A program made the position numbers and the translations under genes. Shown in pieces: positions 1,546 to 54,866 of a DNA stretch of 64,000 nt (within the stretch, counting starts at the first letter, position 1; every line of letters begins with the position of its first letter). The notes beneath the pieces were generated by a model. The model worked only from the letters and a program-made list of their open reading frames with translations, was not told the DNA's origin and made no database searches. The stretch comes from Trematomus loennbergii (Eukaryota; Chordata; Actinopteri; Perciformes; Nototheniidae). Location of the stretch: positions 109,501 through 173,500 of the forward strand of contig JAAOOA010000280.1 in assembly GCA_012861695.1 (NCBI GenBank), in the 5' to 3' direction.

Positions 1546-1635
1546 CTACCCACAGTAGATGTCCACAGGTGAACACGGCCGAGGAGCTTTCCTCATTTCT
1601 ACGTATGTGGAGTTCTCAGGATCTGTGTCGCTGCA
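1546..1635 (-). CDS. CTLA-4/CD28-family receptor, last (cytoplasmic) exon
   Basis: Seen: on the minus strand a polypyrimidine-AG acceptor ends at 1636, followed by a 30-codon in-frame exon closing with TAG at 1548-1546. The peptide starts CSDTDPENSTYVEMRKAP. The YVEM motif matches the YVKM motif of CTLA-4 tails and the YMNM motif of CD28, which bind PI3K SH2 domains or AP-2 depending on phosphorylation. The junction is phase 0 and fits the donor of the transmembrane exon at 3073. Known: the family are T-cell co-stimulatory or inhibitory receptors at the plasma membrane. Inference: this is the C-terminus of a fish CTLA-4-like protein. CD28 is the alternative, but the membrane exon looks more like CTLA-4. 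Confidence 0.72.
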   Translation of the reverse strand, partial: CSDTDPENSTYVEMRKAPRPCSPVDIYCG

Positions 1636-2068
1636 CTGAAACACAGAAACAGAAAAGCAGCACATTTATTACTGTTTTATTCTCTTAGTCATGTAACTTA
1701 ATGAGTAAAAACAAGCCCCCAGCAGAGCTAGTGATATAGGAAAAAACAATATATGACTTGGAACTGCCACAAAGAACAACATAGTTCAGTTCAAAAGTGA
1801 GTAGGAAATCAGGTTGACATAGAAAGTAAAACTTGTAGGGAGTAAATTAGTTTTATAGACCATTCTTATTTTGCCAACATTTGGGAGGCATTAGTATTGA
1901 TAATGTGGACTAGTAAATCCTTTATTGCCCTGTCTCTGTGTTTTCCCACTTGTCTGATGGTCTGATTCTTTTCACCTGCTACTCTTGTGTTTCTGCCTGT
2001 CCTCCCCAGCTGTGTCTTGTCTTTGTGATTAGTCCTGTGTGTGTTTATAAGTCTGTCTTGTGTTCTTT

Positions 2069-2451
2069 GGCCGTTTCTCAATCGCGAGGATGCTGGCTTG
2101 GTAGCACAGCCGAGCCGAGCATCTTGCTTCAGAAGCAAGGCAAGAATCCTTCCTGGCATTCGGACAACGAAGAGTGGAACAGGCTAGCAAGTGTGCAGGT
2201 GTGCGTCATATGAGAGGCCCCGCCTTACATCTTCCGCCACAGATTTGGGGAAATTGGTCCATACGCAAAGCATTGTGGGGATTTTAAGGACTCCCATGTG
2301 CAGCCTCGAAATTTCCCCCAAACCAAGGACGCGGCCTCGGTGGAATTCCAAGTATGCTGGAGATTGGAACAGTCCTTCGGTGACACTCGATGACGTAGCA
2401 TCCTTGAAATATTGGCTTGGAAGCCAATATCCTCGTGATTGAGAAACGGCC
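2069..2451. mobile_element. Non-autonomous TIR transposon (MITE), possibly Harbinger-like
   Basis: The two ends are inverted copies for about 23 bases with few mismatches, beginning GGCCGTTTCTCAATC. The element is directly flanked by TTT at 2066-2068 and 2452-2454, consistent with a 3-bp target duplication. It is 383 bp and has no transposase frame. The 3-bp duplication hints at PIF/Harbinger, but TTT is not the canonical TWA. Confidence 0.7.
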
Positions 2452-2536
2452 TTTGTCTGTTCGTTGTCTTTCTTTCTGTCTGGGTCCGGATGTGTGGTGT
2501 TGTTTTGTACCTGCCTGATTCCCTACTATTCAATAT

Positions 2537-2540
<4 letters not shown>

Positions 2541-2569
<29 letters not shown>
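2541..2569. repeat. (TA)n microsatellite
   Basis: About 14 uninterrupted TA units inside the CTLA-4-like intron. Confidence 0.95.
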
Positions 2570-2571
<2 letters not shown>

Positions 2572-3072
2572 TAAAAAATAAACCATGAGCGTATGCATTA
2601 GGTCTTGCATTTAGTTTTTACACTTCAAGTCATATTCACCTCGATGCTAGAAACTCTAGCAAATGTCACAAAAGACTCTCTGGGAATTGCCCTCTACCGG
2701 CTTCACACATGAGTAAAACGTTTCCCAGACTTTTTGTAGCTGTACCTCCTTTTTTTGTCAAAGTTTGCATCATATTTTGCCAAAAAGTGCATCCTGGTAG
2801 CTTGTGCATTTGTTGTGCCAGTAAGGCGTAATGCAGGCAACGACAATGATGACAGATTGATTGATTAACATCTGACACAGGGTGAAAGCCCTCTCTAGCC
2901 TGCCAATGAAATGTGGGAAATCATCTCAATTTGCGTCTGTCACAACTTGGCAAGGCGGGAAAACACAGACACAGGAAGTGAAACAAGATAAGAGAAAATA
3001 CATTTAAAAATAAAACAGGAAACACAATCAACCCCAGGATTATGACAGAAAGACGGTCAGAGAGACAGGTAC

Positions 3073-3221
3073 CGTCAGTCTGATGTAGAAAGCGGTGATC
3101 AGACAGCTGTACAGGAACATCAGAGCCAGCAGACCAATCAGAATCCAGCTGAGCAAATCAGACGGAGGTGAAGATGGAGGCGGAGGTGAAGGCTGAGGCG
3201 GGCAGGTCACTTCCTTTTGAC
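3073..3221 (-). CDS. CTLA-4-like receptor, stalk and transmembrane exon
   Basis: Seen: a 149-nt minus-strand exon with AG acceptor at 3223-3222 and GT donor at 3072-3071. It begins in phase 1, as expected after an Ig V exon, and ends in phase 0. It encodes a Cys-Pro proline-rich stalk (TCPPQPSPPPP...), then SDLLSWILIGLLALMFLYSC and LITAFYIRLT. Known: the Cys-Pro before the membrane is the dimerisation cysteine position in CD28 and CTLA-4, and the spaced SD-L-W-I-L ... YS-L-TA pattern resembles the CTLA-4 membrane segment. Inference: membrane exon of a fish CTLA-4-like gene. Odd: no Ig V exon or signal peptide exon follows within the window; the upstream DNA runs straight into transposon sequence at 3744. 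The gene may be broken, or its 5' exons may lie beyond a very large intron or a misjoin. Confidence 0.72.
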
Positions 3222-3743
3222 CTTACAAAAAAATGTAAATGCATTTCCTGTTTGTATATTACTGGTTTAAACATTGATACAGTGTTGAGGTGTAGTAGCA
3301 CTAACAGCACAGCTTCAGGTTAAAAACATCCTGAATGAACAGAGATGTATTTAGAAAAGGAATATTTTAAATAAACCCCCTAAAGGTTGCTTTCAAATTT
3401 GAGTATTTTTGAGTACTGCTTTGTTTTTCGTTTATTAAAGACAGTTACTTTATAGAATATAAAATAATATGTTAAAGAAAGTATTCAGACATGTCACAGA
3501 AAAAAACATTACCACATTGTAAAAAAAAGTCCTGCATTACTAATGTCACCTGAGTATGTATAATGAAAAGTTAAATCAATCAAAACGATTACACTTTTTC
3601 AAAGGAAAAGCTTGAAATCCTCATATTTAAGAAGCCATGACGAATTTTCAATGAAAGATTACTATAATAAGGGGGGGGGGTGTGGGAGAGAAACTTCCAC
3701 TGGAGGGAACACAGGGATTTTAGCTTTTGCAGACCATTTACAT
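3222..3743 (-). other. Upstream intron of the CTLA-4-like gene, no Ig exon seen
   Basis: AT-rich sequence with a poly-G run at about 3671-3680. No frame longer than about 60 codons and no Ig-fold cysteine/tryptophan spacing on the minus strand. Confidence 0.5.
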
Positions 3744-3943
3744 CACACGTGTCAAACTCAAGGCCCGGGGCCAAATCAGGCCCTTGATGGATTTAATTTC
3801 GGCCCGCAGGATAATTTCTAATGACTATTAGATCTGGCCACCGGTATATTGCATGCACACCTTCACTCCATCCTGAGGATCTCCTCAGCTCAGAGCCTGA
3901 CCCCAAACATTGATGAACCTGCACCCAAGATGAGATGTAATAT
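3744..3943 (+). mobile_element. hAT element fragment with transposase C-terminal remnant
   Basis: The left edge carries the GTGTCAAACTCAAGGCCCGG type terminal repeat of vertebrate hAT elements. Plus-strand sequence at about 3853-3943 reads HLHSILRISSAQSLTPNIDE, which resembles the C-terminal tail of hAT transposases (a recalled family motif, not searched). At about 3938-3943 it changes abruptly into the recombinase-element gene, so one element was inserted into, or joined to, the other. No right terminus is present. Confidence 0.6.
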
Positions 3944-4828
3944 GACAGTCTTCACTGGGCTCTTCACAGGGTTCTTGACCGTACTCTTCCCACCGGAGGC
4001 TACTGCAAGCATGACAGTCTTCACTGGGCTCTTCACAGGGTTCTTTACCGGTCTCTTCCCGGAGGCTACTGCAAGCATGACAGTCTTCACCGGGGTCTTC
4101 ACAGGGGTCTCGCTACCGGAGGTTACTGGGGACTGCATGACAGTCTTCACCGGGGTCTTCACAGGGGTCCCGCTACCGGAGGTTACTGGGGACTGCATGA
4201 CAGTCTTCACCGGGGTCTTCACAGGGGTATTGCTGCCTGAGGCTACTGTGTTTATGCCGGAGGTACTTGGGATTGCCAGGCCCTTAAATCGTATACATTC
4301 GTCCTCTTCCTCAAGAACAGCAGCACTCTGCTTCCTGGGTTTTAGCTCCTTTTTCAGCCTGGAGCGCAGGGTCTTCACCTCATCATTGAGGGCATCCTTC
4401 TGAGCCCTCAATGCCACATTTTCCAGCATCACCTGCCTGCAGTCCTCGTTGTCACACTCGGTATGTGGGGAGAAGGTGGAGGGTGCCCGGGGTATTCCCT
4501 CATTGTCTATATCCAATGATGTAGCCATTCCAATGATGGGGTTAGTCTCACGGAGGTCATGGAGCAACTGCAGTGCCACACTATGCTTCAGCCTTGCCAT
4601 GACCTGCTGTGCCAACTCAGGGTGGTCATGTTTTACATGACGGTCCAGTCTCTTCCCAGCGTACGAACACCCAGCGATGGGACAGGGTTTGGTCCGAACA
4701 TTTATCCTTCCACTGGCTATTTTCAGGAGGATTCCCCTCTCCTCCAAGTTCCGCACTGCATGCTTGTGCTTAAGGTGTTTGTTCAATGCCAGATAGAAGA
4801 GTCTGCACACCGGGCATTCAGATGACAT
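3938..4828 (-). pseudogene. Left copy: finger/TPVK protein of the recombinase element, 3' truncated
   Basis: Seen: one open minus-strand frame from ATG at 4828-4826, just after a TTTCAG acceptor-like site. Residues 5-23 form a Cys-x2-Cys/His-rich finger (CPVCRLFYLALNKHLKHKH). A second one follows (CPIAGCSYAGKRLDRHVKHD), then a helical charged region around KDALNDEVKTLRSRLKKEL, then about five repeats of TPVKTPVKTV/NPVKSPVKTV encoded by a 60-63-bp minisatellite. The frame then runs into the hAT fragment, so the tyrosine recombinase domain of the right copy is missing. Inference: DNA-binding N-terminal half of a recombinase-element protein, truncated. This copy is clean in frame where the right copy is frameshifted, so it is the better guide to the N-terminus. 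Confidence 0.75.
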
Positions 4829-5305
4829 CCTGAAACACACATAATGAATTTGATCAAAATGATGTTATAGTTCTCCGTTTATATGCGTTAGCGTGAGCGG
4901 TGGTTGCGACACTGGGTCCGATGCATCAATTCATGGTGCATGGACGAAGGGAAGTATTGGGTTACCACCGGGTCCCCTTCCGCACCAACGCGGGGCTGGT
5001 GATGGCAACATTGGGTCCGATGCATCATACATGGTGCCCCGACCATGAGAGGGTTTGGGGTACCCCGGAACCAGGCACCACCCCAGCAGGAAACGGGTTG
5101 TATGGTCAAAGGAGGAAAGAGTGATAGAACCGGGGTAAAGCAAAGAAAGTGTCCGACAATAGTGACTTGTGAGGCGGCCAGAGAGTCTGTCATATCTCGG
5201 TCCTATCCTCCAGGCAACGCTGTGGCCAAAACTGGGCTAAAAACTAAAAAAACTAAAAAATATTTCATCCAGGGAAATTTGGGTGAAAATGAAAAAAAAG
5301 TACCC
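4829..5305 (-). promoter_or_regulatory. Leader/promoter region of the left recombinase-element gene
   Basis: Minus-strand TATAAA at 4883-4878, about 50 bp upstream of the start codon, within a module shared with the right arm (TATAAA at 11703 and 11877). Two degenerate copies of a block containing GGGTCCGATGCATCA lie at about 4914-5020. The region is inverted relative to 11320-11935. A minus-strand frame at 5193-4888 (MTDSLAASQVTIVGH...) begins identically on both arms, but I have no evidence that it is translated. Confidence 0.55.
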
Positions 5306-5307
5306 GG

Positions 5308-5742
5308 AAATAGTGCTTCATTAGCCAGCAGCAGTCCCCTGTCGACTCATGTGACATTCCTCCAGGGTTACATAGAACCAGGGTGTGGGGTCCGAGCCAT
5401 CTCCGAGACATCTCTAGTCCGTGTTGATAATGGGGGAAATGTACCCCAAAATAGTCCTTCATTAGCCAGCAGCAGTCCCCTGTCGACTCATGTGACATTC
5501 CTCCAGGGTTACATAGAACCAGGGTGTGGGGTCCGAGCCATCTCCGAGACATCTCTAGTCCGTGTTGATAATGGGGGAAATGTACCCCAAAATAGTCCTT
5601 CATTAGCCAGCAGCAGTCCCCTGTCGACTCATGTGACATTCCTCCAGGGTTACATAGAACCAGGGTGTGGGGTCCGAGCCATCTCCGAGACATCTCTAGT
5701 CCGTGTTGATAATGAGGAAAAAGTACCCCAAAAAAGTGCATC
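5308..5742. repeat. 141-bp tandem array, 3 units
   Basis: The phrase TTAGCCAGCAGCAG recurs at 5321, 5462 and 5603, an exact 141-bp period with nearly identical units. Because 141 is divisible by three, long frames open on both strands; these are repeat artefacts. The array lies between the left leader and the 128-bp array and has no multi-copy counterpart in the right arm. Confidence 0.95.
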
Positions 5743-5761
5743 ATGACTCAGCAATCATCAC

Positions 5762-6850
5762 ACTCAACTTTGGTGATAACCGGGGAAAGGGGTCAAAATG
5801 TAAAAATTATACCCCAAAACAGTGCCTCATGACCCCGCAGGAGTCCCCCGCGGACTCCCCTGACATTCCTCCATGGTCGAATCACCCAACTCAACTTTGG
5901 TGATAACCGGGGAAAGGGGTCAAAATGTAAAAATTATACCCCAAAACAGTGCCTCATGACCCCGCAGGAGTCCCCCGCGGACTCCCCTGACATTCCTCCA
6001 TGGTCGAAATCACCCAACTCAACTTTGGTGAGAACCGGGGAAAGGGGTCAAAATGTAAAAATTATACCCCAAAACAGTGCCTCATGACCCCGCAGGAGTC
6101 CCCCGCGGACTCCCCTGACATTCCTCCATGGTCGAAATCACCCAACTCAACTTTGGTGATAACCGGGGAAAGGGGTCAAAATGTAAAAATTATACCCCAA
6201 AACAGTGCCTCATGACCCCGCAGGAGTCCCCCGCGGACTCCCCTGACATTCCTCCATGGTCGAAATCACCCAACTCAACTTTGGTGATAACCGGGGAAAG
6301 GGGTCAAAATGTAAAAATTATACCCCAAAACAGTGCCTCATGACCCCGCAGGAGTCCCCCGCGGACTCCCCTGACATTCCTCCATGGTCGAAATCACCCA
6401 ACTCAACTTTGGTGATAACCGGGGAAAGGGGTCAAAATGTAAAAATTATACCCCAAAACAGTGCCTCATGACCCCGCAGGAGTCCCCCGCGGACTCCCCT
6501 GACATTCCTCCATGGTCGAAATCACCCAACTCAACTTTGGTGATAACCGGGGAAAGGGGTCAAAATGTAAAAATTATACCCCAAAACAGTGCCTCATGAC
6601 CCCGCAGGAGTCCCCCGCGGACTCCCCTGACATTCCTCCATGGTCGAAATCACCCAACTCAACTTTGGTGATAACCGGGGAAAGGGGTCAAAATGTAAAA
6701 ATTATACCCCAAAACAGTGCCTCATGACCCCGCAGGAGTCCCCGCGGACTCCCCTGACATTCCTCCATGGTCGAAATCACCCAACTCAACTTTGGTGATA
6801 ACCGGGAAAAAGGGGTCAAAATGTAAAAAATACGCCCCAAAATAGTGCCT
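5762..6850. repeat. 128-bp tandem array, 8 near-identical units
   Basis: CCTCATGACCCCGCAGG recurs at 5825, 5952, 6080, 6208, 6336, 6464, 6592 and 6720, a period of 127-128 bp. A decayed unit follows at about 6849. The right arm has a single related block around 11160-11290, so copy number differs between arms. Confidence 0.95.
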
Positions 6851-7420
6851 CATAATCGGGTAGAGTCACCTGGAAAGTGCCCTCGCATTCCTCCATGGCT
6901 CAAAATGTCGAACTTAAACTATTTTGAGAACCAGGAAAATGTAAAAAATACGCCCCAAAATAGTGTCTCATAATCGGGTAGAGTCACATGGAAAGTGCCC
7001 TCGCATTCCTCCATGTCAAACTTAAAGTATTGGGAGAACCAGGCTGGGGGTCCTTGTGCCACAAAATTAGGCCCACTCAGAGTGCTTGGTGAGCGGATAC
7101 ATTCTTCCATGATTTGCAACAGCCGTTTTTTTTCTGAGTGCACCCAAAAACTGGGTTTCCGATTTCGTGCGGACGGTAGTCTGAAAAGTATGGATGAATC
7201 TTTTTCACAGGGTAGGGGAAATGAAGCCCAAGGACCTTTTCCCCTTCTCCGTTGCACCAACCATCGGAGAAGGGGAAAAATCGGCCCGAAGCGCCAAACA
7301 CCTGGCCCCTTCTCCTGTTGACAATTTTTCAAAACTTCATTTTTGATTATTTTAAGATATAATTAAGCGTTTTCTTCACTTTTTTTTGCTTTCCACGGGT
7401 GGGGGCGCCTGGCAGGCCGC
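6851..7420. repeat. Inverted arm of the element core (left)
   Basis: About 6990-7330 is the reverse complement of about 10205-10540 with scattered mismatches. Two degenerate ~115-bp units at 6840-7020 match the 118-bp units of 10560-11040. A perfect-stem hairpin with CCCCTTCTCC/GGAGAAGGGG arms lies at 7237-7279 and is kept in the right arm. Frames on either strand have no family motif. Confidence 0.8.
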
Positions 7421-7805
7421 CTATGAGCACCCAAATTCGGCCTGGATCATCCAGGATTTGTGGGCTAAGCTCCATAAACTGACTAAATCACCCAGAGAGG
7501 TCACCTTTCTAGCCCAAATATATATAATACAAATACATTTAAATAGTAAAAGGTGCACTTGTGCTCTGCATTACCCGGAATTTTATTTTAAAGCCCCATG
7601 ATAGTGATTAAAAATCATTTTCATGGGAAAAAGTGTTAAAACGCCTGATTAAATTATATGCAGGACCCCAGTGAGCTCCAGACGATGTGCATTGTGTTGG
7701 GGAACCATATAAATGATAGAATAAATGCATTTAAATGCAAAAATAATGATTTAAAATCATTTTAGGGGGACAGTGAGCCTGAAAATGACTCTGCAGCAGG
7801 CCGCC
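7421..7805. other. Spacer between core arm and 117-bp array
   Basis: About 80 bp at 7421-7501 (starting CGCCTATGAGCACCCAAATT) recurs as a direct repeat at about 8270-8349, so it brackets the 117-bp array. The AT-rich remainder holds nothing I recognise. Confidence 0.7.
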
Positions 7806-8290
7806 TATGAGCACCCAAATTCGGCCTTCTTCACGGCACCACCACCCCTTCTGTGGAGGGTATTCTCGTGCCCCTGGTGACTCTACAAGGGGGGTGGTTT
7901 TTATGGTGCTTATATGTCCGCCCATCAGCATCCATAGTCGGCCTTCTTCACGGCACCACCACCCCTTCTGTGGAGGGTATTCTCGTGCCCCTGGTGACTC
8001 TACAAGGGGGGTGGTTTTTATGGTGCTTATATGTCCGCCCATCAGCATCCATATTCGGCCTTCTTCACGGCACCACCACCCCTTCTGTGGAGGGTATTCT
8101 CGTGCCCCTGGTGACTCTACAAGGGGGGTGGTTTTTATGGTGCTTATATGTCCGCCCATCAGCATCCATATTCGGCCTTCTTCACGGCACCACCACCCCT
8201 TCTGTGGAGGGTATTCTCGTGCCCTGGTGACTCTACAAGGGGGGTGTTTTTTATGGTGCTTATATGTCCGCCTATGAGCACCCAAATTCG
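7806..8290. repeat. 117-bp tandem array, 4 units
   Basis: GGCCTTCTTCACGGC recurs at 7823, 7940, 8057 and 8174, an exact 117-bp period (39 codons), which keeps frames open on both strands. Two further units occur in inverted orientation at 15240-15440, beyond the right copy of the gene. Confidence 0.95.
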
Positions 8291-8651
8291 GCCTGGATCA
8301 TCCAGGATTTGTGGGCTAAGCTCCATAACTTACTAAATCACCCAGAGAGGTGAAAGAGGACACATTGACCCAGCAGTAAGTGCTTGAAACGTGGGTAAAG
8401 GTGTGTTAAACTGTGGGGTAACATGTTTCAAATGACAGCACGGTGCTGCTTGTTGGCAGGCTGACTCAGTTCACTTGTCTCACACACACCCAGGGGGGGA
8501 AAGATAACACTTGTACCCAGGAATAAGTCTTTGAAAGGCGGGGAAAAGTTGTTTGAAATAGTATAATACCTCCAGGCCGCTTAACTGCACTTTACCACCC
8601 AGAAATAATGTTTAAATGGTCGGGGAAAGTATTTTTAAATGTCTGGAAGAG

Positions 8652-8778
8652 AGTTTTAGACAGTCATTTTGCACGAAATCATTTAACATAGACGCTCTCC
8701 TGAAAATGCACAGAATATGTGCTTTTTCAGGAGACCGTTAATGTTAAATGATTTCGTGCAAAATGACTGACTAAAACT
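8652..8778. repeat. Long hairpin in core, copy 1
   Basis: Arms of about 50 nt, including CATTTTGCACGAAATCATTT and its complement, around a loop of about 20 nt. A few mismatches interrupt the stem. Confidence 0.9.
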
Positions 8779-9893
8779 CCGGAATAAGTGTTTGAAAGGC
8801 GGGGAAAAGTTGTTTAAAATAGGCTGATACCTCCAGGACGCATAACATGGGTAAAAAGTGTGTTAAAAGGTCGGGGAACATGTTTCAAATGACAGCAGAC
8901 TGGTGGTTGTTAGCAGGCTGGCTCAGTTCACTTGTCTCACACACACCCAGGGGGGGAAAGAGGACACATTGACCCAGGAGAAAGTGCTCAAAACGTGGGT
9001 AAAAGTGTGTTGAAAAGTGGGGGTACATGTTTCAAATGACAGCACACTGCTGCTTGTTGGCAGGCTGACTCACTTCACTTGTCTCACACACACCCAGGGG
9101 GAAGAAAGAGGACACATTGGAGCACACATTGACCCAGGAAAGAGTGCTCGAAACGTGGCTAAAGCATAGTCAAACTGTGGGGTAACATGTTTCAAATGAC
9201 AGCACACTGCTGCTTGTTGGCAGGCTGACTCACTTCACTTGTCTCACACACACCCAGGGGGAGAAAGAGGACACATTGGAGCACACATTGACCCAGGAAA
9301 GAGTGCTCGAAACGTGGCTAAAGCATAGTCAAACTGTGGGGTAACATGTTTCAAATGACAGCACACTGCTGCTTGTTGGCAGGCTGACTCACTTCACTTG
9401 TCTCACACACACCCAGGGGGGAGAAAGAGGACACATTGGAGCACACATTGACCCAGGAAAGAGTGCTCGAAACGTGGCTAAAGCATAGTCAAACTGTGGG
9501 GTAACATGTTTCAAATGACAGCACACTGCTGCTTGTTGGCAGGCTGACTCACTTCACTTGTCTCACTCACACCCAGGGGGAAGAAAGAGGACACATTGGA
9601 GCACACATTGACCCAGGAAAGAGTGCTCGAAACGTGGCTAAAGCTGTGTCAAACTGTGGGGTAACATGTTTCAAATGACAGCACACTGCTGCTTGTTGGC
9701 AGGCTGACTCACTTCACTTGTCTCACACACACCCAGGGGGGAAAGATAACACTTGTACCCAGGAATAAGTGTTTGAAATGCGGGGAAAAGTTGTTTGAAA
9801 TAGTATAATATCTCCAGGGCGCATAACTGCACTTTACAAGCCAGAAATAATGTTTAAATGGTCGGGGAAAGTATTTTTAAATGTCTGGAAGAG

Positions 9894-10018
9894 AGTTTTA
9901 GACAGTCATTTTGCACGAAATCATTTAACATAGACGCTCTCCTGAAAATGCACAGAATATGTGCTTTTTCAGGAGACCGTTAATGTTAAATGATTTCGTG
10001 CAAAATGACTGGCTAAAA
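9894..10018. repeat. Long hairpin in core, copy 2
   Basis: Near-identical to the hairpin at 8652-8778, as part of the duplicated core block. Confidence 0.9.
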
Positions 10019-10135
10019 CCCCGGAATAAATGTTTGAAAAGCGGGGAAAAGTTGTTTAAAATAGTCTGATATCTCCAGGGCGCATCACCAAAATGTACAA
10101 GCCAGGGAAGATGCCTGAATCCCGGATACTTTAGG

Positions 10136-11040
10136 TCTGTCCCTTAGGGTGACCGCACCACTCCGACGCTCCCGAGAGCGGACGTCCATTGTTTGTAAGG
10201 CACCTAAGAGGGAGAAGGGGCCAGGTGTTTGGCGCTTCGGGCCGATTTTTCCCCTTCTCCGATGGTTGGTGCAACGGAGAAGGGGAAAAAGTCCCTGGGC
10301 TTCATTTCCACTTCTCTGTCAAAAAGATTCATCCATACTTTTCAGACTACCGTCCTCACGAAATCGGAAACCCAGTTTTGGGTGCACTCAGAAAAAAAAC
10401 GGCTGTTGGAAATCATGGAAGAATGTATCCGCTCAACAAGCACTCTGAGTGGGCCTAATTTTGTGCCTCAAGACCCCCCACCCTGGTTCTCCCAATACTT
10501 TAAGTTTGACATGGAGGAATGCAGGTCACTTGACAGGTGACTCTAGGGTATAATTTTTACATTTTCCTGGTTCTCAAAATAGTTTAAGTACGACATTTTG
10601 AGCCATGGAGGAATGCAAGGGCAGTCGACAGGGGACTCTACCCGATTTTGAGGCACTATTTTGGGGTATAATTTTTACATTTTCCTGGTTCTCAAAATAG
10701 TTTAAGTATGACATTTTGAGCCATGGAGGAATGCAAGGGCAGTCGACAGGGGACTCTACCCGATTTTGAGGCACTATTTTGGGGTATAATTTTTTACATT
10801 TTCCTGGTTCTCAAAATAGTTTAAGTACGACATTTTGAGCCATGGAGGAATGCAAGGGCAGTCGACAGGGGACTCTACCCGATTTTGAAGCACAATTTTG
10901 GGGCATAATTTTTACATTTTCCTGGTTCTCAAAATAGTTTAAGTACGACATTTTGAGCCATGGAGGAATGCAAGGGCAGTCGACAGGGGACTCTACTCGA
11001 TTTTGAGGCACTATTTTGGGGTATAATTTTTTACATTTTC
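10136..11040. repeat. Inverted arm of the element core (right) with 118-bp array
   Basis: About 10205-10540 is the inverted copy of about 6990-7330. It includes the hairpin at 10246-10290, whose 15-nt arms are perfect around a 15-nt loop. TTTCCTGGTTCTC then recurs at about 10562, 10681, 10800, 10918 and 11037, period 118-119 bp. Open frames here are repeat artefacts. Confidence 0.85.
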
Positions 11041-11319
11041 CTGGTTCTCAATATAGTTTAAGCCCGTTTGACCCGGTTCCTTCTGCCGGGGGCACTGCCC
11101 GGTCCCGGGTGCCCCCCCAGGGCTCGCGTACAGCCGTTTCACCCCCCGCATTGACGGATTTTGACCATTTTTGGCCGGCTCTCACAAAAGTTGAGTTTGT
11201 TGATTTTGCCCATGTCAGAATGTCAGGGGAGTCCGCGGGGGACTCTTGCGGGGTCATGAGGCACTATTTTGGGGTACAATTTTTCCATTTTCACCCAAAT
11301 TTCCCTGGATGAAATATTT
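11041..11319. other. Right-arm single-copy counterpart of the 128-bp repeat, plus GC-rich insert
   Basis: About 11160-11290 reads as a reverse-complement relative of the 128-bp unit of the left arm. The GC-rich stretch at about 11070-11150 has no partner I can see on the left. Confidence 0.6.
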
Positions 11320-11935
11320 TTTGTTTTTTTTGTTTTTAGCCCAGTTTTGGCCACAGCGTTGCCTGGAGGATAGGACCGAGATATGACAGACTCTCTGGCC
11401 GCCTCACAAGTCACTATTGTCGGACACTTTCTTTGCTTTACCCCGGTTCTATCACTCGTTCCTCCTTTGACCATACAACCCGTTTCCTGCTGGGCTGGTG
11501 CCTGGTTCCGTGATACCCCAAACCCTCTCATGGTCGGGGCAACATGTATTGATGCATCGGACCCAATGTTGCCATCACCAGCCCCGCGTTGGTGCGGAGG
11601 TGGGACCATCTGACCCGGTGGTAACCCAATACCTCCCTTGGTCCATAAACCATGAATTGATGCATCGGACCCAGTGTCGCAACCACCGATCACGCTAACG
11701 CATATAAACGGGGCACCATGTATTGATGCATCGGACCCAATGTTGCCATCACCAGCCCCGCGTTGGTGCGGAGGTGGGACCATCTGACCCGGTGGTAACC
11801 CAATACCTCCCTTGGTCCATGCACCATGAATTGATGCATCGGACCCAGTGTCGCAACCACCGATCACGCTAACGCATATAAACGGAGAACTATAACATCA
11901 TTTTGATCAAATTCATTATGTGTGTTTCAGTAAGG
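11320..11935 (+). promoter_or_regulatory. Leader/promoter region of the right recombinase-element gene
   Basis: Inverted counterpart of 4829-5300. A 174-bp tandem duplication carries two TATAAA boxes, at 11703-11708 and 11877-11882; the second is about 55 bp upstream of the start codon. A TTTCAG acceptor-like site at 11925-11930 precedes ATG 11936. A possible leader frame at 11383 starts MTDSLAASQ, as on the left arm. Confidence 0.6.
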
Positions 11936-14765
11936 ATGTCATCTGAATGCCCGGTGTGCAGACTCTTCTATCTGGCATTGAACAAACACCTTAAGCACAA
12001 GCATGCAGTGCGGAACTTGGAGGAGAGGGGAATCCTCCTGAAATAGCCAGTGGAAGGATAAATGTTCGGACCAAACCCTGTCCCATCGCTGGGTTTTTGT
12101 ACGCTGGGAAGAGACTGGACCGTCATGTAAAACATGACCACCCTGAGTTGTCCCGACATGAGGCACAGCAGGTCATGGCAAGGCTGAAGCATAGTGTGGC
12201 ACTGCAGTTGCTCCATGACCTCCGTGAGACTAACCCCATCATTGGAATGGCTACATCATTGGATATAGACAATGAGGAGGAATACCCCGGGCACCCTCCA
12301 CCCTTCTCCCCACATACCGAGTGTGACAACGAGGACTGCAGGCAGGTGATGCTGGAAAATGTGGCATTGAGGGCTCAGAAGGATGCCCTCAATGATGAGG
12401 TGAAGACCCTGCGCTCCAGGCTGAAAAAGGAGCTAAACCCAGGAAGCAGAGTGCTGCTGTTCTTGAGGAAGAGGACGAATGTATACGATTTAAGGGCCTG
12501 GCAATCCCAAGTACCTCCGGCATAAACACAGTAGCCTCAGGCAGCAATACCCCTGTGAAGACCCCGGTGAAGACTGTCATGCAGTCCCCAGTAACCTCCG
12601 GTAGCGGGACCCCTGTGAAGACCCCGGTGAAGACTGTCATGCAGTCCCCAGTAACCTCCGGTAGCGGGACCCCTGTGAAGACCCCGGTGAAGACTGTCAT
12701 GCAGTCCCCAGTAACCTCGGTAGCGAGACCCTGTGAAGACCCGGTGAAGACTGTCATGCTTGCAGTAGCCTCCGGTGGGAAGAGACCGGTAAAGAACCCT
12801 GTGAAGAGCCAAGTGAAGACTGCCATGCTTGCAGTAGCCTCCGGTGGAAAGAGACCGGTCAAGAACCCTGTGAAGAGCCCAGTGAAGACTGTCATATTAC
12901 CAGTTTCCTCGGTAGCGAGACCCCTGTGAAGAGCCCGGTGGAAACTGTCATGTTTGCAGTAGCCTCCGGTAGCGAGACCCCTGTGAAGACCCCGGTGGAA
13001 ACTGTCATGTTTGCAGTAGCCTCCGGTAGCGAGACCCCTGTGAAGACCCCGGTGGAAACTGTCATGTTTGCAGTAGCCTCCGGTAGCGAGACCCCTGTGA
13101 AGACCCCGGTGGAAACTGTCATGTTTGCAGTAGCCTCCGGTAGCGAGACCCCTGTGAAGACCCCGGTGGAAACTGTCATGTTTGCAGTAGCCCCGGTAGC
13201 GAGACCCCTGTGAAGACCCCGGTGGAAACTGTCATGTTTGCAGTAGCCTCCGGTAGCGAGACCCCTGTGAAGACCCCGGTGGAAACTGTCATGTTTGCAG
13301 TAGCCTCCGGTAGCGAGACCCCTGTATGCCGGAAGACCCGTGCCTCTAAGCTGGCTAATGACTTGCCCTCTCCCTCAAATTACTGGTCCACTGGGTGTGG
13401 ACGGGGGAATACCATGCGTGAAATCACGTTGCCTAGAAGCATGGAGGCGTACCTTCAGACATACTTGGATCATTGTTTGGGTGTCGCTCCGACAGTAAAA
13501 CAGAAAGACAATGTTGTGTCGAAGATCAGCCGGATAAAGAACTTCATAGTATACATGGCCCATGGTGTTAACCGCCTGTCAGACTGGCTGTTCCTAAGAA
13601 ACATGAAGATGATCCGTGGCTGGAGCGAGTATATTGTAAAGCCGGGCCGGGCAGTCACAACATCAGAGTTCTTCCTGAAGAATGTGCACCAGTTCATGGG
13701 GTACATGTCTGAGTCAAAGCCCCGGGGGTGCAGCTCACCCAGTCTGATATGACCCACATAATGAGAGAGGTGAAAGCCAACATGAAACACTTGAATAAGG
13801 CAGTCACTCTACATCAGTTTAAGGTGAAGAGGAACAAACTGGATCGTCTGCCGAGCCAGGCGGAGCTTCTCGCCGCCATGGCGGCCGCTGAGAAGCGCAT
13901 CCCGGAGCTCCTCGACCTGATGGCCGGCACGCCGACCTCAACCACCCAGAAGCTTCTCTATGGCTATCTCACCCTCCATTGGAGCCTCCTGTATGGCCAC
14001 CGTACGGGCGTGTACGCAAACATGAAAAACAGTGAGGTCTTAGAGGCAGCCATAAGGGGAACTGCTGAGGGCTACATCATCCATGTGCAGGATCACAAGA
14101 CGGCCAAGACATATGGCGAAGCACAGCTGGCGCTTACAGTAGAGGAGTTTAGCTGGGTCATGCGGTGGATGGGGATTAAAGAGGCATTGCTGGGTCCTCA
14201 GAATGAATTCTTCCTTTTCACAAGGGGGAATCGGGCCTCCAAGAACCTGAACGCTCACTTGAAGAGGGCATGGGCTGATGCTGGGCTAGACACAGCCGTC
14301 ACCTTCACAATCCTGCGCACTGCCCTGGCTGACAATATCAAGCATCACCAAGATCCAGAAAGCCGGTCGATTCTCGCCAGGTTTATGTGTCACGACGTAA
14401 CCACGGCGGACCGGTTCTACGCGAATGCGCCGGGAATAAAGGAGGCATTGAGAATCCGCTCCATGTTCAGGGCGTCATCAGATGCGGCAGCAGCTGCATC
14501 ATCATCAGAAGGATGTCTACCGCTGTCAGATGGGGAGACCTCCGAAGAGGGCTGCTATAACAGTACTGCTTCATCATCTTCACCTGATGGGTCATTGGAG
14601 CGGCAGCAGCAGCGGAAGCGGAAGCGGGAGGGAAAGAGGCCAATGAAGTCGGGACCGGGGCTGGTTGACACTCCTGATGATGGGGCAGGGGCCGTGGACT
14701 CAACCTGTTTGCCCTGGTGCACCGTAAGAATTAGACGCCTAATTTGGTCCCCTGAATCCCGCTAA
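11936..14765 (+). pseudogene. Right copy: finger/TPVK/tyrosine recombinase protein of a mobile element
   Basis: Seen: successive plus-strand frames reproduce the left-copy fingers, then about 13 minisatellite-encoded TPVKTPVET/KTV repeats (12546-13330). A conserved domain follows from NYWSTGCGRGN (about 13379) to TAA at 14763-14765. In the last open segment (from 13728) the tyrosine recombinase residues appear in order: R92 in YGHRTGVYA, K124 in DHKTAKTYG, R197 in FTILRTAL, H222 in MCHDVTTADRF and Y231. The usual His of the HxxR box is Thr194. The C-terminus is Ser/Ala-rich then basic (RKRKREGKRP). Inference: a DNA-binding recombinase that moves this element; no reverse transcriptase is visible, so not DIRS/Ngaro as seen. 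Odd: the frame is broken at TAG 12044-12046, near 12280, 12440, 12710, 12905, 13190 and 13725; where the left copy or neighbouring repeat units allow comparison these are mostly one-base losses. Either dead or carrying assembly errors. Confidence 0.78.
12546..13330 (+). repeat. 57-63-bp coding minisatellite (TPVK tract)
   Basis: About 13 units inside the recombinase-element frame, each holding CCTGTGAAGACCCCGGTG. The first three are exactly 60 bp and near-identical; later ones are mostly 57 bp. Unit lengths divisible by three would preserve the frame, but a few units lack one or two bases. The left copy has about five units. Confidence 0.92.
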
Positions 14766-15239
14766 ACATTGTGAATATGTATACCGTGTATATAATTATT
14801 ATTATAATCCTGTGTATACATTTTGTAAATAGTACAATATCTCCAGGGCGCATAACTGCACTTTACAAGCCAGGGAAGGTGCCAGAATCCTGGGCATACA
14901 TTTTGTTAATAGTGCAACACCTTCAGGGCGCATAACTGCACTTTAAAACGTAGGGTAAAACATTTAGTAGTACTGTTATAGCAGTGCTACGTGTAAATAG
15001 TTGATGTTTTAGGCTGTGTGTACTGTGGTTTTTGTTCCTGCAACGTGTAAATAGTTGATGTTTTAGGCTGTGTGTACTGTGGTTTTTGTTCAAAAAAATA
15101 AAAAAAAATAAAAATAAAGTGCCACTTTCCATCAGCACCGGGGTGCTGAACCCTGTGATGAGCGCTCAAGTGTTGGCGGAGGAGGTGTAAGCCAGAGGAG
15201 GGTGAACAAAAGTTAAAGTGTTTGAACCTCCAGCCCAGA
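14766..15239. other. 3' flank of the right recombinase-element gene
   Basis: Two CTCCAGGGCGCATAACTGC-type motifs (14839 and 14919) match motifs of the core, linking this flank to the core. A 54-bp direct duplication starts at 14991 and 15045. An A-rich stretch with AATAAA-like hexamers at about 15090-15118 is a plausible polyadenylation region for the upstream gene. Confidence 0.65.
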
Positions 15240-15440
15240 AGGGGGGTGGTGGTGCCAATAAGAAGGCCGAATTTGGATGCTGATGGGCGGACATAGAAGC
15301 ACCATAAAAACCACCCCCCTTGTAGAGTCACCAGGGGCACGAGAATACCCTCCACAGAAGGGGTGGTGTGCCGTGAAGAAGCCGAATATGGATGCTGATG
15401 GGCGGACATAGAAGCACCACAAAATCCACCCCCTTTAGGG
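15240..15440. repeat. Two inverted units of the 117-bp repeat
   Basis: Reverse-complement matches to the 7806-8290 array, with small deletions. Confidence 0.9.
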
Positions 15441-16106
15441 TCACCAGGGGCACGAGGTTCTGCTGGGTGTGAATACCTGTGTTTAGTCCGTGGGGGAGTG
15501 CTTAAGTGTGGGGGCCCGGGGACTCATGGTGTGCAAGGTTATGGAGGTCCCACTGTTATGGGGACATGCTGGAGGTCTCGAGTCCGTCCTTGGGGGCTCT
15601 GTGAGCGGGCAGAGTGAGGTGATTTCCCCTGGTCTCTCCTGGAGGTGTAGAGTCCCACTGTTATGGGGACATGCTGGAGGTCTCGAGTCCGTCCTTGGGG
15701 GCTCTGTGAGCGGGCAGAGTGAGGTGATTTCCCCCTGGTCTCTCCTGGAGGTGTAGAGTCCCACTGTTATGGGGACATGCGGGAGGTCTCGAGTCCGTCC
15801 TTGGGGGCTCTGTGAGCGGGCAGAGTGAGGTGATTTCCCCTGGTCTCTCCTGGAGGTGTAGAGTCCCACTGTTATGGGGACATGCTGGAGGTCTCTAGTC
15901 CGTCCTTGGGGGCTCTGTGAGAGGGCAGAGAGAGGTGATTTCCCCTGGTCTCTGCTGGAGCTGTGAAATGCACAGAGTCCCACTGTTAGGGAGCCATCCT
16001 GGAGGTCTCTAGTCCGTCCTTGGGGGCTCTGTGAGCGGGCAGAGAGAGGTGATTTCCCCTGGTCTCTGCTGGAGCTGTGAAATGCACAGAGTCCCACTGT
16101 TAGGGA
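15441..16106. repeat. Satellite block 1 (about 105-bp units) with its lead-in
   Basis: GGAGGTCTC recurs at 15571, 15676, 15782 and 15887 (105-106 bp), with one more unit to about 16100. The lead-in at 15440-15560 matches the tail of the spacers at 16700 and 19110. Minus-strand frames (SPQGRTRDLQ...) are artefacts of the repeat. Confidence 0.9.
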
Positions 16107-16699
16107 TATAATTAAATACTGTTTCTTTTTTCAAAAACGCTCAAACACAAATATATTAAGGTAAAGTCGGTACGGATCATCAGAGCGGGGGCTCTGGGTA
16201 AACACTCTATTTTTCCCTATTTGCAAGGTTACCAGGGGCATGAAGTTCTTTCCGGGATGTCCATATGTGTTTAGTCAGAGTGCTGAAGTTTGAGTACACA
16301 GCTTTGCCAGGCGCACCCACCCGTGGAATGAACCAACATGGATTCTTTCCTTCAGCACCGGTGAGGCGCTGTCTACCAGTGCTAAAAAGCTAAAGTGCAC
16401 CTTGAGTCCCCTGACCCCTTGATTTAAGCACAATGCCTAGGACAAAACCCCTATGTGAATAAACTGCCAGACAAGCGTGCCCTGGTAAGCTAAAACTATG
16501 AAGAGTGTCTGGGGGTCAGGAGTTCGCAGTTGAATGCTTAAGGGCGGACGGTAGACCACCACAAAATCCACCCCTTGTTAGTGTACCAGGGGCACGAGGT
16601 TCTTGAGGGTGTGAATATCTGGGTTTAGTCCGTGGGGGAGTGCTTAACTGCGGGGGCCCGGGGACTCACGGTGTGCAAGGTTCTGGAGGTGCCACTGTT
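16107..16699. repeat. Higher-order spacer A of the satellite
   Basis: Unique-looking block of about 593 bp, nearly identical to 18511-19112; the differences are mostly single-base indels. It separates satellite blocks 1 and 2. Confidence 0.9.
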
Positions 16700-18510
16700 A
16701 GGGACTGGTGCTGGAGGTCTCTAGTCCGTCCTTCGGGGCTCTGTGAGCGGGCAAATAGAGGTGATTTTCCCCTGGTCTCTGCTGGAGGTGTGAAATAAAC
16801 AGAGTCCCACTGTTAGGGATGCTGCTGGAGAGTCTCTAGTCCGTCCTTCGGGGCTCTGTGAGCGGGCAAAGAGAGGTGATTTCCCCTCGTCTCTCTGGAG
16901 GTGTGAAATAAACAGAGTCCCACTGTTAGGGACTGCTGCTGGAGGTCTCTAGTCCGTCCTTCGGGGCTCTGTGAGCGGGCAAATAGAGGTGATTTTCCCC
17001 TGGTCTCTGCTGGAGGTGTGAAATAAACAGAGTCCCACTGTTAGGGACTGCTGCTGGAGGTCTCTAGTCCGTCCTTCGGGGCTCTGTGAGCGGGCAAATA
17101 GAGGTGATTTTCCCGGACTCTCTCCTCGAGGTGTGAAATAAACAGAGTCCCACTGTTAGGGACTGCTGCTGGAGGTCTCTAGTCCGTCCTTCGGGGCTCT
17201 GTGAGCGGGCAAATAGAGGTGATTTCCCCTGGTCTCTGCTGGAGGTGTGAAATAAACAGAGTCCCACTGTTAGGGACTGGTGCTGGAGGTCTCTAGTCCG
17301 TCCTTCGGGGCTCTGTGAGCGGGCAAATAGAGGTGATTTTCCCTGGTCTCTGCTGGAGGTGTGAAATAAACAGAGTCCCACTGTTAGGGACTGCTGCTGG
17401 AGGTCTCTAGTCCGTCCTTCGGGCTCTGTGAGCGGGCAAATAGAGGTGATTTTCCCCTGGTCTCTGCTGAAGGTGTGAAATAAACAGAGTCCCACTGTTA
17501 GGGACTGGTGCTGGAGGTCTCTAGTCCGTCCTTGGGGGCTCTGTGAGCGGGCAGAGAGAGGTGATTTTCCCCTGGTCTCTGCTGGAGGTGTGAAATAACC
17601 AGAGTCCCACTGTTAGGGACTGCTGCTGGAGGTCTCTAGTCCGTCCTTCGGGGCTCTGTGAGCGGGCAAATAGAGGTGATTTTCCCTGGTCTCTGCTGGA
17701 GGTGTGAAATAACCAGAGTCCCACTGTTAGGGACTGCTGCTGGAGGTCTCTAGTCCGTCCTTGGGGGCTCTGTGAGCGGGCAGAGATAGGTGATTTTCCC
17801 GGTCTCCGCCCTGGAGGTGTGAAATAACAGAGTCCATGTTAGGGAGTGATGCTGGAGGTCTCTAGTCCGTCCTTGGGGGCTCTGTGAGCGGGCAGAGAGA
17901 GGTGATTTCCCCCTCGTCTCTCCTGGAGGTGTGAAATAAACAGAGTCCACTGTTAGGGACTGCTGCTGGAGGTCTCTAGTCCGTCCTTCGGGGCTCTGTG
18001 AGCGGGCAAAGAGAGGTGATTTTCCCCTGGTCTCTCCTGGAGGTGTAGAGTCCCACTGTTATGGGGACATGCTGGAGGTCTCTAGTCCGTCCTTGGGGGC
18101 TCTGTGAGCGGGCAGAGAGAGGTGATTTCCCCCTGGTCTCTGCTGGAGCTGTGAAATGCACAGAGTCCCACTGTTAGGGAGCCATCCTGGAGGTCTCGAG
18201 TCCGTCCTTGGGGCTCTGTGAGCGGGCAGAGTGAGGTGATTTCCCCCTGGTCTCTCCTGGAGGTGTAGAGTCCCACTTTATGGGGACATGCTGGAGGTCT
18301 CTAGTCCGTCCTTGGGGGCTCTGTGAGCGGGCAGAGAGAGGTGATTTCCCCCTGGTCTCTGCTGGAGCTGTGAAATGCACAGAGTCCCACTGTTAGGGAG
18401 CCATCCTGGAGGTCTCTAGTCCGTCCTTGGGGGCTCTGTGAGCGGGCAGAGAGAGGTGATTCCCCCTGGTCTCTGCTGGAGCTGTGAAATGCACAGAGTC
18501 CACTGTTAGG
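16700..18510. repeat. Satellite block 2 (105-115-bp units, about 16 copies)
   Basis: GGAGGTCTCTAGTCCGTCC recurs about every 114 bp (16713, 16827, 16941, 17056, 17171, 17285 and on). Variants such as TTCGGGG/TTGGGGG and CAAATAG/CAGAGAG interleave, a sign of unequal exchange or gene conversion. Confidence 0.95.
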
Positions 18511-19112
18511 GATATAATTAAATACTGTTTCTTTCTTTTTCAAAACGCTCAAACACACCAATATATATTAAGGTAAAGTCGGTACCGGATCATCAGAGCG
18601 GGGGCTCTGGGTAAACACTCTATTTTTCCCTATTTGCAAGGTTACCAGGGGCATGAAGTTCTTTCCGGGATGTCCATATGTGTTTAGTCAGAGTGCTGAA
18701 GTGCGAGTACACAGCTTTGCCAGGCGCACCCACCCGTGGAATGAACCAACATGGATTCTTTCCTTCAGCACCGGTGAGGCGCTGTCTACCAGTGCTAAAA
18801 AGCTAAAGTGCACCTTGAGTCCCCTGACCCCTTGATTTAAGCACAATGCCTAGGACAAAACCCCTATGTGAATAACTGCCAGACAAGCGTGCCCCTGGTA
18901 AGCTAAAACTATGAAGAGTGTCTGGGGGTCAGGAAGTTCGCAGTTGAATGCTTAAGGGCGGACGGTAGACCACCACAAAATCCACCCCCTTGTTAGTGTT
19001 ACCAGGGGCACGAGGTTCTTGAGGGTGTGAATATCTGGTTTAGTCCGTGGGGGAGTGCTTAACGCGGGGGCCCGGGGACTCACGGTGTGCAAGGTTCTGG
19101 AGGTGCCACTGT
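18511..19112. repeat. Higher-order spacer B of the satellite
   Basis: Second copy of 16107-16699, about 2.4 kb further on. Confidence 0.9.
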
Positions 19113-20735
19113 TAGGGACTGGTGCTGGAGGTCTCTAGTCCGTCCTTCGGGGCTCTGTGAGCGGGCAAAGAGAGGTGATTTTCCCGGTCTCCGCCCTGGA
19201 GGTGTGAAATAAACAGAGTCCCACTGTTAGGGACTGCTGCTGGAGGTCTCTAGTCCGTCCTTCGGGGCTCTGTGAGCGGGCAAATAGAGGTGATTTTCCC
19301 GGACTCTCTCCTCGAGGTGTGAAATAAACAGAGTCCCACTGTTAGGGACTGCTGAGGTCTCTAGTCCGTCCTTCGGGGCTCTGTGAGCGGGCAAAGAGAG
19401 GTGATTTCCCCCTCGTCTCTCCTGGAGGTGTGAAATAAACAGAGTCCCACTGTTAGGGACTGCTGCTGGAGGTCTCTAGTCCGTCCTTCGGGGCTCTGTG
19501 AGCGGGCAAATAGAGGTGATTTTCCCCTGGTCTCTGCTGGAGGTGTGAAATAAACAGAGTCCCACTGTTAGGGACTGGTGCTGGAGGTCTCTAGTCCGTC
19601 CTTCGGGGCTCTGTGAGCGGGCAAATAGAGGTGATTTTCCCCTGGTCTCTGCTGGAGGTGTGAAATAAACAGAGTCCCACTGTTAGGGACTGCTGCTGGA
19701 GGTCTCTAGTCCGTCCTTCGGGGCTCTGTGAGCGGGCAAATAGAGGTGATTTTCCCTGGTCTCTGCTGAAGGTGTGAATAAACAGAGTCCCACTGTTAGG
19801 GACTGGTGCTGGAGGTCTCTAGTCCGTCCTTGGGGGCTCTGTGAGCGGGCAGAGAGAGGTGATTTTCCCCTGGTCTCTGCTGGAGGTGTGAAATAACCAG
19901 AGTCCCACTGTTAGGGACTGCTGCTGGAGGTCTCTAGTCCGTCCTCGGGGCTCTGTGAGCGGGCAAAGAGAGGTGATTTTCCCCTGGTCTCTGCTGGAGG
20001 TGTGAAATAACCAGAGTCCCACTGTTAGGGACTGCTGCTGGAGGTCTCTAGTCCGTCCTTGGGGGCTCTGTGAGCGGGCAGAGATAGGTGATTTTCCCGG
20101 TCTCCGCCCTGGAGGTGTGAAAATAACCAGAGTCCCACTGTTAGGGAGTGATGCTGGAGGTCTCTAGTCCGTCCTTGGGGCTCTGTGAGCGGGCAGAGAG
20201 AGGTGATTTCCCCCTCGTCTCTCCTGGAGGTGTGAAATAAACAGAGTCCCACTGTTAGGGACTGCTGCTGGAGGTCTCTAGTCCGTCCTTCGGGGCTCTG
20301 TGAGCGGGCAAAGAGAGGTGATTTTCCCGGTCTCCGCCCTGGAGGTGTGAAATAAACAGAGTCCCACTGTTAGGGACTGCTGCTGGAGGTCTAGTCCGTC
20401 CTTCGGGGCTCTGTGAGCGGGCAAATAGAGGTGATTTTCCCCTGGTCTCTGCTGGAGGTGTGAAATAAACAGAGTCCCAACTGTTAGGGACTGCTGCTGG
20501 AGTCTCTAGTCCGTCCTTCGGGGCTCTGTGAGCGGGCAAAGAGAGGTGATTTCCCCCTCGTCTCTCCTGGAGGTGTGAAATAAACAGAGTCCCACTGTTA
20601 GGGACTGCTGCTGGAGGTCTCTAGTCCGTCCTTCGGGGCTCTGTGAGCGGGCAGAGAGAGGTGATTTCCCCTTGTCTCTCCTGGATGTGTTAAATAACAG
20701 AGTCCACTGTTAGGGACACCTCTTGGAGGTCTCTA
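19113..20735. repeat. Satellite block 3 (about 114-bp units, about 14 copies)
   Basis: Same unit as block 2, ending with a decayed unit at about 20690-20735. After this the sequence is mostly non-tandem. Confidence 0.95.
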
Positions 20736-21545
20736 GGCCGTCCTCATGATGTGTCCTGGGTCTCTAAGGACCCTGCTAACAGCAGTGACTCTGCTGCCTG
20801 CATTTAAACAGATTCAGCAGTTTAAGACTGCATGACAAATGCATTGTAGTTCTGGCACATGTTCAGATTCTGCTATTCTGCTATTCCTGCTGAAATAGCA
20901 CATTGTGAACTACCATATTTCATTAAATGACTGTCTCCTGAATTAAAACATTTCCCCCGACTTTAAACACTAAAGTGCCCAGGTTTTGAGCACTTACTGC
21001 TGGGTCAATGTGTCCTCTGTCGCCCTGGCTGTGTGTATGTTTAAGCTGCTGAAAGCAGTGATTCTGCAGTTTTTAGTTTATTGTACATTTAATAAATTAA
21101 ATATGATTAATATGAACAGTGTTCAGTCTATACTGACATGTTTATGTACATATATCTCCCTGTTTGTTGACTCCAATGTACACCGTCTAAAAATGACAAT
21201 TATGACTGAATTAAAACAGTTTGATCACTTATGCTGGGTTAATATATTATATTTTCCCCCTGGTGTGTGTGTATGTGTGTGTGGCACAATCTGGTGGAAC
21301 ATTTGTGAATTACACTAAAATCCAAAATATTAATGTTTTTATCTTGGCGAAATAATGGTTTAATGAACCCCAATGTAAAGATCATTTATGATTCTGCAGA
21401 CGTTGTCTACACGTGTATCACAACGGCTTATTTTTAGAGTGATTTGGAAAACTCGGTTAGCCAAGTTTATTTTGTCAATATGAGATGCACTGTTTTCATG
21501 TCCCATGTACATATCTGTACATATGGCCTCACGCACTACTAACGC
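20736..21545. other. Transition region with decayed core-repeat relics
   Basis: About 20980-21035 is an inverted, degraded match to the core phrase GGACACATTGACCCAGGA...GTGCT, and 21210-21290 a weaker one. The large element or its relics therefore extend to about 21300. No coding exon seen. Confidence 0.55.
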
Positions 21546-54660: not shown

Positions 54661-54866
54661 GTGCAGACAGGGTGTCCAGCAGGGAGGACAGCTCAGCCAT
54701 GTGATAGTTCTTCTGGTTTAGCACTAGCAGCTTTGTAAATAGTGAGTTGTATTAGAGATCATTCACAGCTACACTGAGGTAATCGGATGGTTTATAGCAT
54801 CCTCTGTTAGTGACTGCAGGATGACATGACTATAACATCTCATATTAGGAAGTGCAGCTGCATTAA

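Follow-up and report, generated by a model that had tools for sequence, protein, structure and literature searches.

Between positions 3937 and 20823 of the window, a 64,000-nucleotide stretch of the genome of the perciform fish Trematomus loennbergii (contig C280, positions 109501–173500; assembly of 1,208,474,268 bases in 3566 contigs), lie two broken copies of a transposable element whose single gene encodes a putative tyrosine recombinase. The two gene copies face outward, the left one on the minus and the right one on the plus strand, as a preliminary description made from the window's letters had claimed. That description took the region for an inverted-dimer mobile element. The mobile element stands: it is a real, young and unusual tyrosine-recombinase DNA transposon, of which two broken copies, one nested in the other, make up the "inverted dimer". 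The reference for both gene copies was P0006, a full-length homologue of 721 amino acids from an ENA contig. The left copy matches its residues 3–240 in one frame on the minus strand with 93% identity, and the right copy matches residues 1–721 on the plus strand, spread over several frames. Long inverted repeats in the window (268 nucleotides at 100%, 270 nucleotides at 91%, and others) lie far beyond chance. The features are listed below with lengths in base pairs (bp); C26 and C1 are two copies of the element that were followed end to end elsewhere in the genome.

3937–10212, minus strand: element copy with a genuine left (5') end at 10212; it is cut short at 3937, within the TPVK tract, and the 3' part of gene and element is missing
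10203–10212, minus strand: terminal CCCTCTTAGG of this copy, the left end of the element; the same end stands in 16/16 left junctions of the pool, as the string search that collected them dictates
10213–10217, minus strand: CTTCT, the 5-bp core of the target, preserved at the left junction
10213–20823, plus strand: putative host copy, starting at about position 2773–2780 of C1; its 5' part and true right end are missing
10251–10260, plus strand, and 10276–10285, minus strand: two convergent CCCCTTCTCC motifs, what remains of the internal target cluster (sequence, and motif map of C26 and C1)
3937–4828, minus strand: truncated gene copy that retains the N-terminal part and the first portion of the TPVK tract; recombinase domain missing (frame list and P0006 match)
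4760–4816, minus strand: first CCHH motif, C-x2-C-x9-H-x4-H; C5, C8, H18 and H23 invariant in 12 sequences
4622–4684, minus strand: second CCHH motif, C-x4-C-x9-H-x4-H; C49, C54, H64 and H69 invariant in 12 sequences
11918–14765, plus strand: right gene copy, frame broken (P0006 match)
12529–13325, plus strand: 57-bp coding minisatellite, the TPVK tract (tandem-array search)
13713–14765, plus strand: open frame with the recombinase catalytic domain; R 14001–14003, K 14097–14099, Thr of TxxR 14307–14309, R 14316–14318, H 14391–14393, Y 14418–14420
5296–7043, no strand: 141-, 128- and 118-bp arrays of the minus copy (tandem-array search)
7801–9742, no strand: 117-bp and 160-bp arrays, present in the minus copy and without counterpart in the window's plus copy (tandem-array search)
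10546–11885, no strand: 118- and 174-bp arrays of the plus copy (tandem-array search)
14985–20744, no strand: 3' arrays of the plus copy, namely 54-bp, 115-bp (15243–15456), 105/114-bp (15547–16106) and long 115-bp (16692–20744); related arrays occur in the fetched copies L031 and L034

The inverted core reported earlier is only partly shared: about 3.94–7.32 kilobases (kb) pairs with 10.21–12.90 kb, and 7.3–10.2 kb, where the 117- and 160-bp arrays lie, belongs only to the minus copy, as its 5' part. The minus copy matches C26 over 1–5594 and C1 over 461–5378 on the minus strand. The frame of the right gene copy is disrupted near 12040, 12440 and 13731 and within the repeat tract, and similarity to the element stops near 20823. 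The minus copy meets the plus copy at 10212/10213, its precise left end abutting a target motif internal to the latter; this end is preceded by CTTCT (10217–10213), where uninterrupted copies read TGGCCCCTTCTCCTGTTG. Because a left end thus sits on an internal target motif that uninterrupted copies carry intact, the window is best read as an inverted nested insertion of one element copy into another, with later losses. These would have removed the 3' part of the insert, the 5' part of the host to the left of 3937 and the outer right end beyond about 20823. The bases at 3780–3936, beyond the break of the minus copy, are non-element sequence. A stretch at about 3745–3815, about 200 bases farther left, resembles what we take to be a dispersed repeat (TGTCAAACTCAAGGCCC) and may mark whatever removed the missing part. 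An Rfam search of the window gave no match.

A complete copy with defined ends, which the preliminary description had proposed to look for, was found twice in this genome. C26 measures 10,783 bp, contains a 932-amino-acid frame and consists to 55.8% of tandem arrays; C1 measures 10,301 bp with 45.0% arrays, and its gene frame is interrupted. Both are single and non-palindromic, with one recombinase gene each, and this gene is the sole long non-array frame in either. The element begins with CCCTCTTAGGTGCC and ends with CCAGAGCATTCC-CTTAT. A comparison of the first with the last 800 bp of C26 revealed no inverted repeats at the termini. What does recur in inverted form is one 65-bp stretch from near the left end, present again close to the right end with 82% identity; it consists of subterminal array units only. 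In C26 and C1 the arrays lie between the defined ends, and the 115-bp type found in L031 is common to five other fetched copies and to the window (six further copies were fetched, plus the upstream parts of three). The earlier claim that the arrays belong to the element is thereby borne out, and no copy examined lacked the core and arrays. Unrelated satellites beside a gene were rejected as an explanation, the arrays being enclosed by both ends in C26 and C1. L031 also contains a stretch of about 3.8 kb (L031:1323–5105) without homologue match, located in the repeat tract between the N-terminal and recombinase parts of the gene, which is probably an insertion.

The recombinase gene has 1538 candidate places in the genome; the best 116 were scored, and all are 97–100% identical and free of stops. 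At the 30 best loci the DNA is at least 99.7% identical to the window over at least 1033 bases, figures that come from best matches and favour young copies. The left end has 1101 candidate places, of which 40 were scored, all 99–100% identical. Taken together, the sequences indicate a young, high-copy tyrosine-recombinase DNA transposon of about 10–11 kb. Among 99 frames taken from the 116, 61 have lengths that fall in three remainders modulo 19, a pattern to be expected from gain or loss of whole 57-bp units in the coding minisatellite. A count of variants in 6/30 loci yielded 0 synonymous and 2 non-synonymous changes, too few to judge selection; it left out the 24/30 loci whose match began one or two bases late.

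How the element inserts can be read from an empty site. C26 sits in a repeat for which 102 candidate places exist in the genome; 40 were scored, all at 99% identity or more. The empty locus L091, a copy of that repeat, reads CAGAGGGTCC-TTACT-CAGGGGCACAGG. At the filled site the left side reads CAGAGGGTCC-TTACT followed directly by the element start CCCTCTTAGG, and the right side CATTCC-CTTAT followed by CAGGGGCACAGG. No base was lost or duplicated; the 5 bp of the target stay on the left and the CTTAT of the element is found on the right. Three one-sided junctions within other element copies agree with uninterrupted copies. For a wider sample, right windows of 20 copies (12 with an end) and of 8 further copies (5 with an end) were fetched, as were left windows of the same 20 copies, in which exact-string matching located 10 ends and BLAST alone an eleventh. 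These ends were pooled with those of earlier copies, minus L070 on the left and L054, with a deviant core, on the right. The pool yields the target rule YTTNT^C: T occupies positions -4 and -1 in 16/16 left junctions and position -3 in 13/16, and C occupies +1 in 18/20 right junctions (14/15 plus 4/5). Both Ts are expected at a rate of 0.094 per site, as estimated from window positions 22001–64000. The exact-string search favours intact ends and so biases the element side, not the target side.

In L049 the right window runs directly into a left end, CATTCC-CTTAT-CCCTCTTAGG, which makes it a chromosomal head-to-tail pair; its joint reads as the sequence expected of a circle joint, and no inverted arms were found around that joint. 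Core exchange without loss or duplication is what integration of a circle should produce. An excised circle integrated by the element's own recombinase would fit the exchange, the tandem joint and the fold and catalytic residues described below, so that the element appears to move by a bacterial-style tyrosine recombinase. In the proposed pathway the recombinase would circularize the element, creating the joint CATTCC-CTTAT-CCCTCTTAGG, and the circle would recombine with a genomic YTTNT^C site, leaving the 5 bp of the target on the left and CTTAT on the right. Excision behind a replication fork with reinsertion ahead of it is one usual way in which such elements gain copies.

The preliminary description had recognized a protein with fingers, a TPVK tract and a tyrosine recombinase, and this architecture is upheld: two CCHH motifs with invariant residues, the tract encoded by the 57-bp minisatellite, and a recombinase domain of Xer/Cre type. 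In the right window copy R, K, R, H and Y follow each other in the order it had given (codons at 14001, 14097, 14316, 14391 and 14418), with Thr (14307) at the His position of the HxxR box. P0001, a close relative of the window frame for which structure comparison found an Xer/Cre-type fold, has R197, K229, R302, H327 and Y336, again in tyrosine-recombinase order, and the R-to-H and H-to-Y spacings are as in Xer/Cre proteins, which places it in that superfamily. Across the aligned relatives the catalytic residues are kept in R 24/24, K 24/24, R 22/23, H 22/22 and Y 21/22 of the rows with a residue. The HxxR His is replaced in 23/23 such rows (T 16, I 3, M 2, L 1, K 1). TPVK repeats resemble the DNA-binding tails of S/TPKK type that some chromatin proteins have, and by analogy one might guess that the tract serves as a linker that holds DNA.

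The hidden Markov model search proposed for the window translation gave no firm family. A Pfam search of three window frames produced nothing firm, no PDB chain was matched in a single-sequence search with the window frame, and NCBIfam and PHROGs searches of P0001 and P0002 were equally without firm result. P0001 matched PF00589 at E 0.011, below the curated cut-off, and none of 35 relatives carries a precomputed Pfam domain. Single-sequence searches are nearly blind to this recombinase family.

About 7,990 candidates were scored in each protein search, which makes all counts lower bounds. The first search had at least 5 related proteins and the profile search at least 35. The organism-labelled rows (P0001, P0006, P0014, P0034 and P0035 stand outside them) are from the teleosts Gymnodraco, Pseudochaenichthys, Chaenocephalus, Brachyistius, Liparis, Pseudoliparis, Fundulus, Gambusia, Poeciliopsis, Kryptolebias, Epinephelus, Siniperca, Collichthys, Larimichthys, Monopterus, Sinocyclocheilus and Hoplias. 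A third search yielded at least 20 relatives, including, on short contigs, full-length forms of 844 and 854 amino acids and one that is 73% identical; the family may be larger and wider than the matches listed. When a collection of viral contigs was scanned with the family profile, 27 stretches were picked up by pattern and 0 were confirmed by tblastn. Two full-length proteins on 4–5 kb ENA and JGI contigs, P0036 and P0037, are 95% and 100% identical to P0001 and perhaps represent fish DNA in environmental samples. The distant relatives P0035 (502 amino acids) and P0039 (500 amino acids), with 26% and 30% identity over a part, lack the N-terminal CCHH pair, have TxxR instead of HxxR and a different C-terminus, and perhaps form a second family of similar kind.

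The window is one of several cases in which the element has landed in itself. Six insertions (window, C949b, L059, L068, L075, L089) fall within one internal stretch of 75 bp, which contains three CCCCTTCTCC motifs in C1 (plus 2813, minus 2782, minus 2847) and two in C26; for L059, whose first seven bases after the core are unaligned, the exact motif is inferred. A second inverted insert, accompanied by additional breaks, lies on contig C949. For the copy on C768, the ends L075 and L055 map to separate places in the element, so that either rearrangement is common or the pairing of these ends is wrong. The element carries up to three strong target motifs within 75 bp, and among the copies examined this is where new insertions fell repeatedly. 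Whether these internal insertions are targeted at all can be questioned, as they might be chance hits or reflect over-sampling of element-rich contigs. The copies were drawn from the best genome matches, some on short element-rich contigs, the target rule is loose, and CTTNTC occurs 20 to 24 times per copy. Against this, the flank is element sequence in 5/16 left and 5/20 right junctions (the tandem joint of L049 being counted on both sides), compared with about 1.3% of the genome if all 1538 candidates were full length, and six insertions share a single cluster. We consider untargeted insertion somewhat unlikely. We advance, as a tentative proposal that we hold to be less likely than not, that the element belongs to a separate and still active teleost lineage, marked by two CCHH motifs, TPVK and Thr for the HxxR His, whose own CCCCTTCTCC landing pad pulls later insertions into copies already in place, so that nests of direct and inverted orientation arise and host genes are spared insertions.

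Other identities of the element fare less well. A mobile palindrome, in which the inverted dimer would move as a whole, is suggested by the two outward gene copies in long inverted repeats and by the second inverted nest on C949; since C26 and C1 are single and non-palindromic from end to end, the window inverts exactly where an element left end meets a target motif, and the C949 break points differ from those of the window, we rejected the palindromic element as very improbable. A retrotransposon of the DIRS, Ngaro or PAT type, or a non-autonomous one borrowing a reverse transcriptase, would share the tyrosine recombinase and the absence of a target-site duplication, features known in general from such elements. 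Its probability is just as slight: no reverse-transcriptase frame was detected in C26 or C1, where the recombinase gene is the only long non-array frame, and instead of terminal inverted or split direct repeats there are only the inverted subterminal array units. On these grounds the DIRS-like retrotransposon was rejected, in keeping with the earlier statement that no reverse transcriptase is visible, which holds for the frames of the window, C26 and C1 and for the Pfam search of the C26 frames. Membership in a named Crypton family already in Repbase is distinctly unlikely but deserves more weight. It would account for one tyrosine-recombinase gene, no reverse transcriptase and a short core at the ends, as described in the part of PMC3212892 at hand. 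It is at odds with the loss of the HxxR His in 23/23 rows and with the Pfam search, in which 24 relatives matched 21 families between them and DUF3504 was none of these. No published account of the element appeared among the titles and abstract openings of the papers matched; subscription journals, Repbase Reports and preprints lie outside this coverage.

Some results weigh against our own interpretation. The viral structure library also matches the recombinase fold, with integrases and Vlf-1 proteins, and the fold alone cannot separate a transposon from a viral origin. Zinc-finger matches in Pfam are weak, the fingers resting on conserved residues and a model of moderate confidence (predicted local distance difference test, pLDDT, 77). 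An array frame, L034:2888–3385, matches MLVIN_C at E 4.3e-5, below its cut-off, which we take as a probable repeat artefact; the sampling of copies and the looseness of the target rule, named above, belong here as well. Nevertheless, we are highly confident in the account as a whole, that is, a young transposon with a predicted circle and core exchange, apparent self-targeting at internal motifs, and a window that represents a nested insertion.

The element adjoins an odorant-receptor cluster. Olfactory-receptor frames lie at 26612–27604 and 53093–53692 (Pfam 7tm_4, E 8.5e-24 and 3.4e-16) in a locally duplicated region (for example, 25239–27575 and 51507–53835 are 96.6% identical). A 98-bp tandem array occurs three times within the duplicated blocks (25239–25639, 51311–51902, 62170–62763), and a 51-bp array follows each receptor frame (27927–28359, 8.5 units; 54338–54663, 6.5 units).

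Tyrosine-recombinase DNA transposons are poorly known in vertebrates. Here, one fish genome offers many near-identical copies, some with long open frames; their ends are defined to the base, an empty site exists and the target rule can be read. Ends, empty site and rule make the inferred mechanism of circle formation and core exchange directly testable in an animal. The protein is a candidate recombinase with a short, loose target, and the internal landing site may steer where the element goes.

Among known systems, Starships are likewise large tyrosine-recombinase elements; those described in the available part of PMC12134995 inhabit Pezizomycotina fungi, reach about 700 kb and carry accessory genes. 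The fish element differs in its arrays, and neither a captain-type family among the Pfam matches of 24 relatives nor a cargo frame in C26 or C1 was found. Its host is also recognizable as a fish from the protein relatives and the olfactory receptors. Elements of the Tn916/Tn1549 type are bacterial, conjugative and equipped with transfer genes, of which the fish element has none. DIRS, Ngaro and PAT elements also place a tyrosine recombinase in a eukaryotic element, but theirs is accompanied by a reverse transcriptase and by inverted or split terminal repeats, neither of which was found here (in the end comparison of C26 only subterminal array units recur).

Cryptons (F, S, A, I, V) come closest. 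Like them, the element has a single tyrosine-recombinase gene without reverse transcriptase (C26, C1) and a short core common to ends and target without target-site duplication (empty site and junctions), and a circle is the intermediate proposed for Cryptons in the portion of PMC7599744 available. Judged by its sequence the element seems to work like a Crypton. We do not file it there, the comparison being one by description and not by tree: the R-H-R-Y tetrad given in the abstract of PMC3212892 is broken by the replaced His, and the Crypton-derived domain DUF3504 is missing from the matched families. According to the sections of PMC3212892 at our disposal, Crypton F and S ends carry terminal direct repeats of 5–6 bp and none were found in animal Cryptons; most hosts have few copies, medaka being the high-copy exception with more than 2,700, autonomous and non-autonomous, 59–98% identical to their consensus. 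The accessible text of PMC8869645 reports CryptonV, which inserts into microsatellites, from cnidarians, and CryptonV also appears in that of PMC5753468. What sets the fish element apart from Cryptons, besides the His and the domain, are its two CCHH motifs, its TPVK minisatellite, a length of about 10–11 kb of which half is arrays, and the strong self-insertion seen in our sample.

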